A DNA stretch of 64,000 bases from Gammaproteobacteria bacterium (GTDB taxonomy: Bacteria > Pseudomonadota > Gammaproteobacteria > VBWC01): assembly GCA_006218035.1 (NCBI GenBank), contig VBWC01000002.1, positions 124,001 through 188,000 on the forward strand, given 5' to 3'. The number at the start of each line of letters is the position of its first letter. The stretch's first letter is position 1. The notes beneath the pieces are model-generated. The model was not told the origin of the DNA. It searched no databases and saw only the letters and a list, made by a program, of their open reading frames with translations. The translations under genes and the position numbers were made by a program. Of this stretch, positions 54,168 through 61,787 are shown in pieces.

Positions 54168-56420
54168 TCAACGCTGCTTCTTCTTTTTCGTAGAACGGCG
54201 GCGCTTCTTACCAGTCGATTTCGGCTTCTTCGGCGCCTCGTCCAGTGAGAAATCAATCTTCTTTTCGTCAAGATCGACCCGCACGACCTTGACGCGAACC
54301 TTGTCGCCGAGACGGTAAGCGCTGCCAGTGCGCTCACCAGCCATGCGATGTTTGACGGGATCATAGTGATAATAGTCGTTATCCAGCGCGGTTACATGCA
54401 CCAGCCCTTCAACGTATATCTGGTCGAGCTCGACGAAAAACCCGAAGCTGGTGACCGACGTTATGATGCCGTCATATATAGCGCCGACCTTGTCCATCAT
54501 GTACTCGCATTTCAGCCAATCAATGGCATCGCGGGTCGCATCATCTGCGCGGCGCTCGGTCATCGAGCAGTGCTCACCGAAAGCGATCATATCGGCGTGA
54601 TCGTAACGGAAGGTATCGGGTTTTTTGCCGGCCAGCACCTGGCGTATTGCGCGGTGCACCAGCAGATCCGGGTAGCGTCGAATCGGCGAGGTGAAGTGCG
54701 CATACGCCTCGTAAGCCAGACCGAAGTGACCCATGTTCTCCGGGCTGTAAACCGCCTGCGACAAACTGCGCAGCAACACGGTCTGGATAAAATGCGCGTC
54801 CGGCCGACCACGAATCATGCCGAGCAATTCGGCGTAGTGCCTGGGCTCCGGCTTGTGGGCGCCGCCCAGTGTCAGACCGAGTTGGCCGAGTAATTCGCGC
54901 AGATTGGCCAGCTTGTCCGTGTTCGGCCCGCCATGCACACGATACAGCGCCGGCATCTTGTGCTCCAGCAGGAAATCCGCGGCGGCAACGTTCGCCGCAA
55001 TCATGCACTCCTCGATAATCTTGTGCGCATCGTTACGCACGACCGCCTCGATCCTCTTTATCTTGCGCTGCTCGCCGAACACGATACGCGTCTCGGTGGT
55101 ATCGAAATCGATAGTGCCGCGCTCTTCGCGGCGCAGACGAAATGCCTGGTACAGCGCATAAAGCTCATCAAGGTGTGGCGTCAGCAATTTATGGGTACTG
55201 CGCAACGCTGCGTCCTTATCGACGACCATCGCCGCCATTTCTGTATACGTGAGACGCGCATGAGAGCGCATCACACCTTGAAAGAAACGGTAATCAGTGA
55301 CGTTGCCGCTTGCAGAAACGCGCAATTCACAAACCATGCACAGGCGATCGACTGATGGATTCAGTGAGCACAGACCATTTGACAGCTGCGCCGGCAGCAT
55401 TGGAATAACGCGCTCGGGAAAATATACCGAAGTACCGCGCAGACTCGCCTCCCTGTCCAGCGCCGCACCGGGTTTCACATACGAGGACACGTCGGCGATG
55501 GCGACCAGCAAGCGCCATCCCTTGCCCTGTGGCTCGCAAAAAACCGCGTCATCGAAATCCCGGGCGTCCTCACCGTCGATCGTCACCAGAGGCAGTTTTC
55601 TCAGATCTTCGCGCCCCTTCTTGCTGTCCTCGGCAGGTTCCGCGGGAAACTGCTTTGCTTCCTGTGCCACGTCATCCGGCCAGGTATTCGGCAGTTCAAA
55701 CGCACGGATCGCAACGTCGATTTCCATACCGGGCGCCATATGATCGCCGAGCACCTCCACCATGCGCCCGATCGGCTGCGCATGCTTGGTCGGCTGTTCG
55801 ACGATATCGACTACCACAATCTGTCCATCCAGCGCACCGCCGCGGAAATCCGCGGGTACGGCAATATCCTGGCTGATACGTTTATTGCTCGGGATAACGA
55901 CCCCGATACCATGTTCCATATGAAATCGGCCGACAACGCGCTTGTTGTTGCGCTCAAGCACCTCGACGATCGCGCCTTCACGACGCCCGCGGCGATCCAC
56001 GCCGATGACGCGGGCCACGGCACGGTCAGCATGCAATACGGCGCGCATCTGGCGAGCGGATAAAAACAGATCGTCGCCAACTTCATCAGGCACAAGAAAT
56101 CCATAACCATCAGGATGGCCGATGACGCGCCCGCTGACGAGATCCATTTTTGCGACAGGCCCGAATGCATTCTTGCGGTTACGAATAACCTGGCCGGCCC
56201 GCTCCATCGCGTTGAGACGCCGTATCAACGCGTCTTGATCGCGCTCATCGGATATACCGAAATCCGCGGCGAGTTCGTCAAACGTCAGCGGTTGCCCTTT
56301 GGCATCGAGATGTTCGAGGATGTACTCGCGGCTGACAATCGGATGCTCGTACTTGCGAGCTTCCCTATCGGTATGCGGATCGACGACTGGCGTCCCTGAC
56401 TTTTCTGATTTGCGTGACAT
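54168..56420 (-). CDS. rnr: Ribonuclease R
   Basis: Processive 3'-5' exoribonuclease able to degrade structured RNA. Cold-shock domains in the first third, the RNB catalytic domain with DGEDARDFDDAVFCE (acidic metal ligands), then an S1 domain (VGAIYDGIITSVTSFGFFVEL) and a very basic tail (KSTGKKRRRSTKKKKQR). Length 750 residues. First gene of the rnr-rlmB pair. Confidence 0.97.
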   Translation of the reverse strand: MSRKSEKSGTPVVDPHTDREARKYEHPIVSREYILEHLDAKGQPLTFDELAADFGISDERDQDALIRRLNAMERAGQVIRNRKNAFGPVAKMDLVSGRVIGHPDGYGFLVPDEVGDDLFLSARQMRAVLHADRAVARVIGVDRRGRREGAIVEVLERNNKRVVGRFHMEHGIGVVIPSNKRISQDIAVPADFRGGALDGQIVVVDIVEQPTKHAQPIGRMVEVLGDHMAPGMEIDVAIRAFELPNTWPDDVAQEAKQFPAEPAEDSKKGREDLRKLPLVTIDGEDARDFDDAVFCEPQGKGWRLLVAIADVSSYVKPGAALDREASLRGTSVYFPERVIPMLPAQLSNGLCSLNPSVDRLCMVCELRVSASGNVTDYRFFQGVMRSHARLTYTEMAAMVVDKDAALRSTHKLLTPHLDELYALYQAFRLRREERGTIDFDTTETRIVFGEQRKIKRIEAVVRNDAHKIIEECMIAANVAAADFLLEHKMPALYRVHGGPNTDKLANLRELLGQLGLTLGGAHKPEPRHYAELLGMIRGRPDAHFIQTVLLRSLSQAVYSPENMGHFGLAYEAYAHFTSPIRRYPDLLVHRAIRQVLAGKKPDTFRYDHADMIAFGEHCSMTERRADDATRDAIDWLKCEYMMDKVGAIYDGIITSVTSFGFFVELDQIYVEGLVHVTALDNDYYHYDPVKHRMAGERTGSAYRLGDKVRVKVVRVDLDEKKIDFSLDEAPKKPKSTGKKRRRSTKKKKQR

Positions 56421-56580: not shown

Positions 56581-56667
56581 GCCGAGGTGGCGGAATTGGT
56601 AGACGCGCTAGCTTCAGGTGCTAGTGGGGGAAACCTCGTGGAGGTTCAAGTCCTCTCCTCGGCACCA
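56581..56667 (+). tRNA. tRNA-Leu(CAG)
   Basis: 87 nt including an encoded CCA. The acceptor stem GCCGAGG pairs with CCTCGGC. The anticodon loop TTCAGGT between CTAGC and GCTAG gives anticodon CAG, reading CUG. The long variable arm (GGGGGAAACCTC) is that of a class II tRNA, and the T loop GGTTCAAGTCC is conserved. Confidence 0.95.
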
Positions 56668-57242: not shown

Positions 57243-59330
57243 GTGACTGAACGGCCAATCGAAAAACATCATTGGAACACAGTTTTCCTGCTGTCGGCGA
57301 TATCGACCGTCTGCATGACGCTGGTCGTCGGTATACAGCCGCTGTTTCTCGATCGAATTCTCGAGATTCCGTTCGAATCTGCCGGCGCGGTTAACGCGAG
57401 CGTACAGATCGCTGCGGAAATCGGCAGTCTTTTGCTGATTGGAATTCTCGGTTACTTGTCGGATCGCATCGGTCGCAAACCGATTATCGTGTTCGGTTTT
57501 CTGACAACGGCGCTCGGTGCTTTCTTCATGCCGCTCAGCCTGCCACTCGGCACGGTACTTGGTCTCGGCGCACTGACCTTCTATTACCTGACGCGCATCA
57601 TCATGTCGCTGGGCAGTTGTGCATATGGGCCGCAGCTCTGGACACTGGCGGGTGATTACACCAACGCCGAGAACCGCACATCACTGGTCGCCAAGACCAC
57701 CTTCATGACGGTATTCGGCGGCACAATCGTTTACGCGATTCTAATGCGTCTGCCGCAGCAGGGTGACAGCGGCCTGATGATACTGCTTGCGTTACCGTTC
57801 ATCGTCGCACTCGCAGGCGCGTGGCTGGCAAAACACCAGCTTGTCGAAGTTGCGCCGCGGCTGGAAGAGGAAGGCATTCCGTGGCGACGCGTCTTTAAGC
57901 TGGTTGCCAGCGAACCCAAGATGCATTTGACGTTCGCCACCGCGTTTTATTCACGCAGCGATATGGTGTTCGTCAGCCTGTTCGTAATGATGTGGTGCAT
58001 CTACTTCGCGGATCTCGATGGCCTGACGCGCGAACAGGCAGCCGCGCAGGCAGGAACATTGATTGCCTTTGGCGGCGCCACAATACTACTCTCTATTCCG
58101 GTCTGGGCCGCGTTCATCCGCCGCTATGGTCGCGTCGCATCAATCGCCGTGGGCCTTAGCCTTTCGGGCGTGGGCTTTGTTTCCCTGGTATTCATCGACA
58201 GTCCATTCGAAGGATATATCTATATTCCGACGATCATGATTGCACTGGGTCAGGCCGGTTGCTTGATCGCTCCGCAGATACTGACCATAGAGCTCGCTCC
58301 CAAGGACCTGATGGGATCGGTGCTCGGATTCTTTTATTTCGTCGGCGGCCTGGGCATCGTGTTTTTGGTTCAAGCCGGCGGTTTTTATTTCGATACGATC
58401 GGTCCGCACGCGCCGTTTATGCTGATCGGTACCGGCAATCTGCTGATATCGGTGTACGGCTACTGGCTTTGGAGAGCCGAAGTCCGTGGCACTTCGCTGA
58501 TAACCGCAGACAAAAGCGGATTCAAACCGCTGGTGTTTATGCTGTGCCTGCTGCCGTTCGTCTGGTTCCTGGGGCGTCTGTTCGTCACGCACGCAATCCC
58601 GAACAATGACATCGATAACCTACCGGTCGGTTATCAGCAACGTTATCTGGGCGATTGGGCGCTGTACCTGCTCATTGTTTCACTCGCGTTGCGACCGTTT
58701 CGCGAAATGACCGGAGTCAACAAGATTGCACGTTATTCGCGGATGCTCGGCCTGTTTGCGTTTTTCTACGCCTGTTTGCACGTGGTCAACTACGTATGGT
58801 TCGAATTCGGTTTCCACTGGGTCAATATCTGGAATGATATCGTTGACCGGCCGGCAATTACCGTCGGCATCATCGCCTTCCTGATGCTAATCCCCTTGGC
58901 GGCAACGTCGACTAACGAGATGGTCAGAAAACTCGGCGGCAAGCGCTGGAAGGCGCTGCACCGCACGGTATATATCATCGATTTATTGGTGATACTGCAT
59001 TTCGTGCTGGTTACCGACCGGCATTATTTCCTCCCGGCGTTGATGGGGGCCGCCGTCGTGATGTTGCTTGGCTACCGGCTACGCAAGAGCCGCGGTTATC
59101 AGGGCCATGGCGTGCGCCATCTTTTCGAACACTGGTTGCTTGAGATCCGGCCCGATCTGTCCGCCGGAGGCAAGGTACATGTCAGCACCGCGCCGCCGCC
59201 CAAGCCGGAACCGACTGATGACTATTTCGAAATTCGGCCGATTCTCGAACAGATGGACGAAGACGTGACGCCACGAACGAAACGGCGCAGAAGAGCACCG
59301 CGAGCGCCTGAAGAAGCGACCGAATCATAG
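57243..59330 (+). CDS. mamZ: MamZ-like protein: MFS transporter fused to ferric-reductase-like heme domain
   Basis: 695 residues from a GTG start. Residues 1 to about 410 are a 12-helix major-facilitator transporter (signature GYLSDRIGRKPIIV). From about 420 to 625 a second membrane domain matches MsrQ/YedZ: ARYSRMLGLFAFFYACLH and LHRTVYIIDLLVILHF, with H513, H573 and H586. The 60/13 spacing equals that of the heme histidines of E. coli MsrQ as I recall them (H91, H151, H164). This fusion is the architecture of magnetosome protein MamZ, thought to handle iron transport and redox for magnetite formation. The C-terminal tail is cytoplasmic and basic. The next gene encodes a magnetochrome, supporting the call. 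Confidence 0.82.
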   Translation: MTERPIEKHHWNTVFLLSAISTVCMTLVVGIQPLFLDRILEIPFESAGAVNASVQIAAEIGSLLLIGILGYLSDRIGRKPIIVFGFLTTALGAFFMPLSLPLGTVLGLGALTFYYLTRIIMSLGSCAYGPQLWTLAGDYTNAENRTSLVAKTTFMTVFGGTIVYAILMRLPQQGDSGLMILLALPFIVALAGAWLAKHQLVEVAPRLEEEGIPWRRVFKLVASEPKMHLTFATAFYSRSDMVFVSLFVMMWCIYFADLDGLTREQAAAQAGTLIAFGGATILLSIPVWAAFIRRYGRVASIAVGLSLSGVGFVSLVFIDSPFEGYIYIPTIMIALGQAGCLIAPQILTIELAPKDLMGSVLGFFYFVGGLGIVFLVQAGGFYFDTIGPHAPFMLIGTGNLLISVYGYWLWRAEVRGTSLITADKSGFKPLVFMLCLLPFVWFLGRLFVTHAIPNNDIDNLPVGYQQRYLGDWALYLLIVSLALRPFREMTGVNKIARYSRMLGLFAFFYACLHVVNYVWFEFGFHWVNIWNDIVDRPAITVGIIAFLMLIPLAATSTNEMVRKLGGKRWKALHRTVYIIDLLVILHFVLVTDRHYFLPALMGAAVVMLLGYRLRKSRGYQGHGVRHLFEHWLLEIRPDLSAGGKVHVSTAPPPKPEPTDDYFEIRPILEQMDEDVTPRTKRRRRAPRAPEEATES

Positions 59331-59372
59331 TGTCAAAGTTCACCGACAACCAGCGCACGTGACAGGCGGATC

Positions 59373-59849
59373 ATGACCAAACATGAATGGATAATGGCCG
59401 CAGGTATTGGCTTTCTTGTCGCGCTGATCGGCATCGCGCTGCTTCCGGATCATATATGGGAAGATGAAGGTTACGATGACGCACCCGCAATCGTCGCTGG
59501 CACGCCGGCACCGCATCGTGATGGACGGGAAAACATGGCGTGCGGCACCTGTCATCGCATCCTGATACCGGAAAACGCTGCTAACATGCGCCTGCCGCTG
59601 GCAACCAGCCGCGCGGCACCGCCGATAGTGGCCGGTGTTCCGGCGCCGCATGCTGACGGCAGAGAAAGAATGGTCTGTGAAACCTGCCATCAGATCCTGA
59701 TCCGCAGCCCGGTCGGGCACAATCCGAATATGCCCCCGATACGACAGGCCGTGCCCGCCATTATGTCCGGCACCCCGGCACCACATCGTGACGGGCGGGA
59801 GAAAATGGTCTGCGCTTCCTGCCACAGGATTATCGTTCCGGGACAGTGA
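59373..59849 (+). CDS. Membrane-anchored triple magnetochrome cytochrome (MamX/MamT-like)
   Basis: 158 residues. One N-terminal membrane helix (about 8-24), then three repeats with CxxCH heme sites at C57-C60-H61, C102-C105-H106 and C147-C150-H151, exactly 45 residues apart. Each is preceded by PAPHxDGRE, the magnetochrome (MCR) pattern known from MamE, MamP, MamT and MamX, which bind c-type heme and act in magnetosome iron redox. Those proteins usually carry two MCR units; three is unusual. It lies 42 nt after the mamZ-like gene and is probably co-transcribed. No PDZ or protease domain. Confidence 0.85.
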   Translation: MTKHEWIMAAGIGFLVALIGIALLPDHIWEDEGYDDAPAIVAGTPAPHRDGRENMACGTCHRILIPENAANMRLPLATSRAAPPIVAGVPAPHADGRERMVCETCHQILIRSPVGHNPNMPPIRQAVPAIMSGTPAPHRDGREKMVCASCHRIIVPGQ

Positions 59850-60632: not shown

Positions 60633-61787
60633 ATGTTGACATGCGTACACACCTCCACGGACGGACGAAGAAAACAGATCTTGGCAGGACACCTGGTGTT
60701 CTTACTTGCCGGGCTATGGCTGTTGACAGGCCTTATTAGCGCAGCGCACGCCGCTACCTTCACATTTAATTTCGCCTCCGTCTCTGGCGCATCCACTGTA
60801 GGCGAAGCCAGTCAGACCTGCGGCCGCTTCGGCAGTAACAACTGCGAAATGGAGAGTGGCAGCAGCCCGGATGGACAGTCTTCGACCCCGACCGACTGGC
60901 TGAACCAGATTGTCACGATCGGCGGCGTCAAATACTGGCATATGGTCGTCGGCGACCCGCTGGACGGCTTCGCGCTGGAATACTATATCCAGCACGGCAC
61001 GGTCAACCCCGACTATGCCAGCAATGCCGATTTCATCGCCGGCAACTTTGGCTCGAACAAGGTGGGTGACGGCGCCGGCTGGATTCCGTTCGACTTCGAC
61101 CAGGGCTTTTCAACCTCCGGCTCCGGATGCTGGCGTACCATCGGCGTCGCCTGTCGACCGCTGGGCCATAACCCGGAGATACAGGCCAACGGCTATCAAA
61201 ACCCGACCAAGGTCGCGATGAAGCAGATCACGTTCGATTCCGAGCTGACCTTCGATTTCGAGAAGAGCGAGATCGCCGAGAAACCGAAGATCACCCAGAT
61301 CGTGGCGAACAGCGAGATAACGCTGGAGTTCAAGGCCGATATGAGTGCCGGCAACCACTCGTCGATGGGCGCGGTGTTACCCACCAGCAGCAATATCACC
61401 GACCCGCAGGTCTTTGTGAACCGGCTGATCCACGCCGACGGTAACCCGCCGCAACCACCGGGTCAGGACTCGGTACTGGGCCTTTATGATTTCGATTACG
61501 CCCACGATGCCGTCAACACGGTGCGCACCGCAGGCCAGTACACCTTTACCCCGGGCCTGGGCTGGTCGACCTCGCGGCCGAACATCACCTACCGCAGCCG
61601 CGTCGCCGATTTCAATAGCTGGGGCATCGGCAGCGGCAAGATCTACGACAAGGGCACCTATGCCTACATAGGCGGCGCCGGGCTTAACCTCGACCTGGTC
61701 AAATGGGAGGAGTTCATGGACCCCGCCCAGAACCCCTGCGGTGGCGATCCGTGGTGCGGCACAACTCCCGGCGCCATGCCACAGTAG
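60633..61787 (+). CDS. Secreted protein of unknown family
   Basis: 384 residues. A basic start and hydrophobic segment (LVFLLAGLWLLTGLISAAHA) form a Sec signal peptide; the mature chain begins ATFTFNF. Rich in Gly, Ser, Asn and aromatic residues, predicted beta-rich, with Cys pairs (CGRFGSNNC, CWRTIGVAC, CGGDPWC) that could form disulfides. I recognise no domain and no C-terminal sorting signal. It stands alone; start codon uncertain. Confidence 0.7.
   Translation: MLTCVHTSTDGRRKQILAGHLVFLLAGLWLLTGLISAAHAATFTFNFASVSGASTVGEASQTCGRFGSNNCEMESGSSPDGQSSTPTDWLNQIVTIGGVKYWHMVVGDPLDGFALEYYIQHGTVNPDYASNADFIAGNFGSNKVGDGAGWIPFDFDQGFSTSGSGCWRTIGVACRPLGHNPEIQANGYQNPTKVAMKQITFDSELTFDFEKSEIAEKPKITQIVANSEITLEFKADMSAGNHSSMGAVLPTSSNITDPQVFVNRLIHADGNPPQPPGQDSVLGLYDFDYAHDAVNTVRTAGQYTFTPGLGWSTSRPNITYRSRVADFNSWGIGSGKIYDKGTYAYIGGAGLNLDLVKWEEFMDPAQNPCGGDPWCGTTPGAMPQ

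Follow-up and report, generated by a model that had tools for sequence, protein, structure and literature searches.

A predicted mamZ-short mamX pair encoded apart from the mamAB-type magnetosome cluster of a gammaproteobacterium

Why would a gammaproteobacterial genome encode a MamZ-like protein and a magnetochrome cytochrome at a site with no magnetosome gene cluster around them? The pair lies in a 64,000-nucleotide stretch of DNA (here called the window; C32:124001-188000 of assembly G000). A sequence-only reading of the window had described an MFS domain fused to an MsrQ-like heme membrane domain, followed 42 nt later by a c-type cytochrome built of magnetochrome repeats, and had offered two explanations: an unrecognized magnetotactic gammaproteobacterium, or a stand-alone module that might be the ancestor or a relic of magnetosome iron redox chemistry. 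Our analysis makes it highly likely that the two genes form an operon serving magnetosomes, the other genes of which are located in a mamAB-type cluster at a different site in this genome.

Table 1. Positions of the gene pair and neighboring features in the window
Feature	Position	Strand	Description	Basis
rnr (RNase R)	54168..56420	-	Housekeeping neighbor; served for genome placement	
tRNA-Leu(CAG)	56581..56667	+	Border of conserved rlmB-rnr block and mamZ locus	ARAGORN
mamZ	57243..59330	+	MFS transporter domain fused to MsrQ-like (ferric reductase-like) b-heme membrane domain	NCBIfam, Pfam, trees, histidines
Spacer	59331..59372	+	42 nt; AGGCGG Shine-Dalgarno-like motif just 5' of the short mamX ATG	Sequence
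Short mamX	59373..59849	+	N-terminal membrane anchor and three magnetochrome (CXXCH) repeats, without C-terminal MamS-like domain	Pfam MCR, MamX profiles

The fusion protein groups with MamZ

Is the fusion protein a MamZ? The open reading frame encodes 695 amino acids and starts with GTG (its counterpart in a second species of the genus starts with ATG). Pfam by itself recognizes just MFS_1 (residues 14 to 374, 1.7e-34) and Ferric_reduct (residues 470 to 582, 5.4e-17), matches that would also suit an MFS transporter of the ordinary kind that was joined by accident to an MsrQ domain and lies beside an unrelated multiheme cytochrome. We give that explanation practically no chance. The protein scored 768.8 bits against the NCBIfam MamZ model NF040998, exceeding the curated equivalog cutoff of 650, and MamZ proteins were monophyletic in two trees; the score and both trees refute an unrelated fusion, and the magnetochrome (MCR) repeats of the partner, which scored above the Pfam cutoff, also speak against it. 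In the heme-domain tree, 20 MamZ proteins were separated from 21 MsrQ-like proteins at 100/99. In the full-length tree of 20 MamZ and 5 MamH proteins, MamZ, the window protein included, split from MamH at 100/99, and the window protein, its congener, and two zetaproteobacterial-type MamZ proteins formed one clade (100/98). Phylogeny, which the sequence-only reading had proposed as a check, thus places the protein with MamZ and not among ordinary MFS or MsrQ proteins. The closest named MamZ is that of Mariprofundus (54%). Judged by these sequence comparisons, the open reading frame encodes a true MamZ.

Three histidines (H513, H573, and H586) were invariant in an alignment of 20 MamZ and 13 MsrQ-like proteins, a pattern that fits b-heme ligation as known from MsrQ. 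MsrQ (YedZ), the free-standing partner of MsrP, likewise carries these three histidines in a b-heme membrane domain but belongs to the separate clade described above. A search of the G000 genome with MamZ found no free-standing MsrQ-like protein. The MFS half of the window protein is 53% identical to the genome's own MamH, a product of the main cluster that, unlike MamZ, has no heme domain. A sequence search of the Protein Data Bank with MamZ returned no meaningful relative. A C-terminal extension (residues about 620 to 695) occurs in both species of the genus and is partly common to zetaproteobacterial MamZ; it is missing from the MamZ of Alphaproteobacteria and Magnetococcales.

The magnetochrome partner is a short variant of MamX

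The second open reading frame encodes 158 amino acids from an ATG start, with one N-terminal transmembrane segment (a hydrophobic helix). It matched Pfam MCR (PF18509) in three stretches at 2.6e-37, above the Pfam cutoff. The search against Mam profiles that the sequence-only reading had called for gave a different outcome for each protein of the pair: MamZ passed its cutoff, and the partner reached 165 bits against NCBIfam MamX, under the cutoff of 400. A MamX profile that we built from 16 MamX sequences of other Pseudomonadota matched the partner at 6.9e-50 (166 bits) through the anchor and MCR part only, and the first 38 residues alone matched the MamX anchor profile at about 1e-7. None of four short proteins, the window protein included, matched a profile of the MamX C terminus; that profile matched MamS of G000 (1e-19) and MamS of G454 (5e-17), a genome considered below. 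Because the C-terminal domain is absent and the full-length score falls below the cutoff, we call the partner a short MamX variant rather than a full MamX. The magnetochrome assignment of the sequence-only reading therefore held as far as the MCR repeats and the likeness to MamX are concerned; the missing C-terminal domain had escaped it.

A resemblance of MamX to MamE and MamS has been described (PMC3847676, PMC3905215). In the gamma- and zetaproteobacteria of the clade, the MamS-like domain would be a separate protein, MamS, and MamX would function without it. Could the partner instead be a MamT, which likewise consists of an anchor and MCR repeats only? A true MamT is present in the main cluster of G000, and it scored 12 bits against our MamX profile versus 166 for the window protein. 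A Protein Data Bank sequence search with the short MamX matched only designed SAKe proteins, with no single stretch passing alone, and returned no meaningful relative.

A mamAB-type cluster lies on another contig

Where, then, are the other magnetosome genes? The sequence-only reading had seen none in the window, and tblastn with 19 proteins of the genome's own magnetosome cluster bore this out: across the window and the remaining 5.4 kb of the contig, matches fell in the pair only. The G000 assembly (3.01 Mb in 62 contigs, 100% complete, 0.03% contamination) carries a mamAB-type cluster on the minus strand of contig C14, at 70 to 91 kb. The cluster encodes MamI, MamE (with three MCR), a K/A/P-rich protein, MamK, a weak MamL (17 bits), MamM, MamN, MamO, MamP, MamA, MamQ, MamR, MamB, MamS, MamT, and MamH, and further holds genes for a third CDF transporter, an Mms6/MamD-like GL-rich protein, and a MamF-like protein that was recognized by eye and has no NCBIfam match. 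MamA, B, H, I, K, M, N, O, and T passed the NCBIfam cutoffs; MamE, P, Q, R, and S had a magnetosome family as their best match yet scored under the full-length cutoffs. The genome search that had been suggested for mamA, B, E, I, K, M, O, P, and Q thus located the entire core set on C14, with E, P, and Q under the full-length cutoffs. The lack of a cluster beside the pair is explained by this location of the remaining genes in the same assembly. Genome-wide, strong MCR matches were confined to MamE, MamP, MamT, and the short MamX.

Since a search for 16S found no rRNA match in the assembly, we used RNase R for placement. It shares 57 to 66% identity with RNase R of Gammaproteobacteria and 52% with that of Burkholderia and Massilia; identity to the alpha- and zetaproteobacterial proteins drops to 38 to 40%. 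By these gene-level criteria, the genome is that of a gammaproteobacterium with a full core magnetosome gene set. Together with the flagellins encoded in G000, the full mamAB-type cluster and the gammaproteobacterial placement indicate that the organism is very probably magnetotactic, a phenotype predicted from genes. The first of the two earlier explanations is supported to that extent.

Two further proteins of the cluster deserve mention. The third CDF transporter (G000:C14:73549-74697; L009:3549-4697) is a relative of MamM and MamB that scored under their cutoffs and is not a MamV. The K/A/P-rich protein (527 amino acids; G000:C14:86442-88025; L009:16442-18025) occupies the mamJ position between mamE and mamK and has no family match; it may be a lineage-specific magnetosome linker.

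The split arrangement is conserved in a second species of the genus

In the second species of the genus (G001), likewise, mamZ and a short MCR gene share a contig, and the mam cluster lies on a different one. Between the two species, dN/dS was 0.043 for mamZ and 0.024 for short mamX, compared with 0.049 for RNase R and 0.045 to 0.14 for mamB, M, E, and O. Conservation of the pair within the genus was assessed in this close pair of genomes only, the order- and family-level sample consisting of the same two congeners. Given the repeated split arrangement and the strong purifying selection on mamZ and short mamX, the pair is no relic.

An assembly in 62 contigs could in principle have brought together a C14 cluster and a C32 pair from different organisms. 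Such a binning error is exceedingly improbable: contamination is 0.03%, both loci occur in two separate genomes, and the synonymous divergence of both between the congeners is similar (dS, 0.14 to 0.23).

Short MamX and the Z-then-X order recur in zetaproteobacteria

How widespread is this form of the pair? Among 369 class-level genomes, only the two congeners had a MamZ over the cutoff. Members of a second gammaproteobacterial magnetosome family, f116 (G116, G231, and G329), encode MamH, and all their MCR proteins correspond in size to MamE, MamP, or MamT; neither MamZ nor MamX was found in the three genomes, in agreement with the reported absence of MamX from strain SS-5 (PMC3971196). In a phylum-level sample of Pseudomonadota, MamZ exceeded the cutoff in 26 of 398 genomes, 25 of which also had MamH; the sole exception is 82% complete. 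One genome (G520) has two MamZ copies, the second of which (L056, G520:C354) is long-branched, scored 642 bits, under the cutoff, and is paired with its own mamX.

In Alphaproteobacteria and Magnetococcales, mamX precedes mamZ, and MamX has about 239 to 347 amino acids. In G454 and G492 (L057, Mariprofundus), of one other family, mamZ is followed by a gene for an MCR-only protein of 152 to 182 amino acids. Gene order and short MamX architecture equal those in the window, and the MamZ proteins fall in the closest clade; the zetaproteobacterial pair, however, is inside the mam cluster, adjoining mamT or mamQ, whereas the window pair occupies a separate locus. As the short MamX and the Z-then-X order are common to the gammaproteobacterial pair, G454, and G492, the gene comparisons define them as a gamma/zeta variant. 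In the MamZ tree rooted on MamH, the forms with long and short MamX fall on opposite sides of the first fork.

A site outside the cluster is not unusual. Contig stretches from Magnetococcales (L058, L061, and L065) and Rhodospirillales (L059 and L062) carry mamX-mamZ with no other recognizable mam genes nearby, and, according to a survey, auxiliary clusters such as mamXYZ are as a rule either embedded in mamAB or dispersed beyond it (PMC9840458), so that mamXZ away from mamAB has already been reported. A review described MamX and the mamXY operon as specific to Alphaproteobacteria (PMC3971196). Relative to the open-access text, the short MamX and the Z-then-X order are new; figures or supplements of PMC9840458 and PMC11773610 may already depict such gammaproteobacterial genes.

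These comparisons bear on the second of the earlier explanations, in which the pair would be an ancestral or relic iron-redox module with no tie to the present-day magnetosomes of the organism. The pair and the mam cluster are indeed separated by tens of kilobases or more (about 9.5 kb lie between the pair and the C32 end, and about 70 kb between the cluster and the nearer end of C14). Against this stand the full mam machinery in the genome, the purifying selection on the pair (dN/dS of 0.02 to 0.04), the equivalent pair embedded in a zetaproteobacterial cluster, the off-cluster mamXZ genes just described, and the company of MamH in nearly all MamZ genomes. We regard a stand-alone module as very unlikely.

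Proposed role at the magnetosome membrane

What would the pair do for magnetosomes encoded elsewhere? Gene identity, co-conservation, and heme-ligand residues were observed here; localization, electron direction, and substrate are drawn from work on MamX, MamZ, and MamH of Magnetospirillum. By analogy with the proposal for MamXZH, the pair most likely transfers electrons and controls the redox state of iron at the magnetosome membrane. MamZ would be located in that membrane, its MFS half probably moving iron or a ligand and the b-heme of its MsrQ-like half relaying electrons across the membrane. The short MamX, tethered by its one N-terminal helix, would face the magnetosome lumen with three c-type hemes and exchange electrons between MamZ and iron, which could help to adjust the proportion of Fe(II) to Fe(III) for magnetite formation.

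In Magnetospirillum, loss of MamX results in flake-like hematite beside rare normal crystals, and neither the MCR domains of MamX nor the C-terminal domain of MamZ can be dispensed with (Raschdorf et al. 2013, as relayed in PMC3971196 and PMC3905215). The mamXY operon of Magnetospirillum gryphiswaldense MSR-1 likewise encodes an MFS and ferric reductase-like fusion beside a membrane-anchored magnetochrome protein, with the heme-position histidines in common and invariant across MamZ. In contrast to MSR-1, the window has mamZ before mamX, its MamX has three MCR repeats and no C-terminal MamS-like/OB-fold domain, and neither mamY nor an ftsZ-like gene adjoins the pair. Its predicted architecture fits the same role as that of Magnetospirillum MamX and MamZ, minus the MamS-like domain.

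These findings add a gammaproteobacterial magnetosome lineage to those with a redox module of the MamZ/MamX type, at variance with the Alphaproteobacteria-only view of the review (PMC3971196). They also suggest that, in nature, MamX can do without its C-terminal domain, narrowing the functional core down to the anchor, the hemes, and MamZ. Tentatively, and leaning somewhat against it, we raise the possibility that the MamX of Alphaproteobacteria and Magnetococcales is a composite, in which a magnetochrome protein that partnered MamZ, initially free-standing as it still is in Gamma- and Zetaproteobacteria, later acquired a domain derived from MamS. If so, MamZ and short MamX would represent the minimal magnetosome electron-transfer unit.

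Flanks and origin of the locus

The spacer between the two genes is nearly identical in the congener, and the sequence layout is consistent with an operon. A promoter scan yielded a single sigma-70-like site, upstream of the tRNA-Leu gene and no better than chance. The tRNA-Leu(CAG) gene, rnr, and rlmB were grouped in four other gammaproteobacterial genomes with no mamZ at the site.

Was the pair acquired separately from the main cluster, perhaps at this tRNA gene, from a zetaproteobacterium-like donor? Its position at the edge of a conserved block, the Mariprofundus affinity of MamZ, and the absence of MamZ and MamX from family f116 would suit such a transfer, and the same function would be possible. 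However, vertical inheritance with loss in f116, or rearrangement out of the cluster, is equally possible, and the locus (GC content, 0.565) differs little in composition from the cluster (0.581) and from rnr (0.574). Although the tRNA-Leu gene does mark an edge, a search of roughly 19 kb, from about 6 kb upstream to 12 kb downstream, revealed no second copy of the tRNA 3' end, and we rejected a tRNA-mediated island. Transfer of the pair appears unlikely, with an appreciable chance of being correct.

Downstream of the pair, window positions 60633 to 61787 encode a 384-amino-acid protein that is probably secreted and has no NCBIfam match; beyond it, open reading frames of 1,544 and 719 amino acids extend onward to C32:192862. 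The 384-amino-acid protein is kept in the congener and is faster evolving (dN/dS, 0.17).
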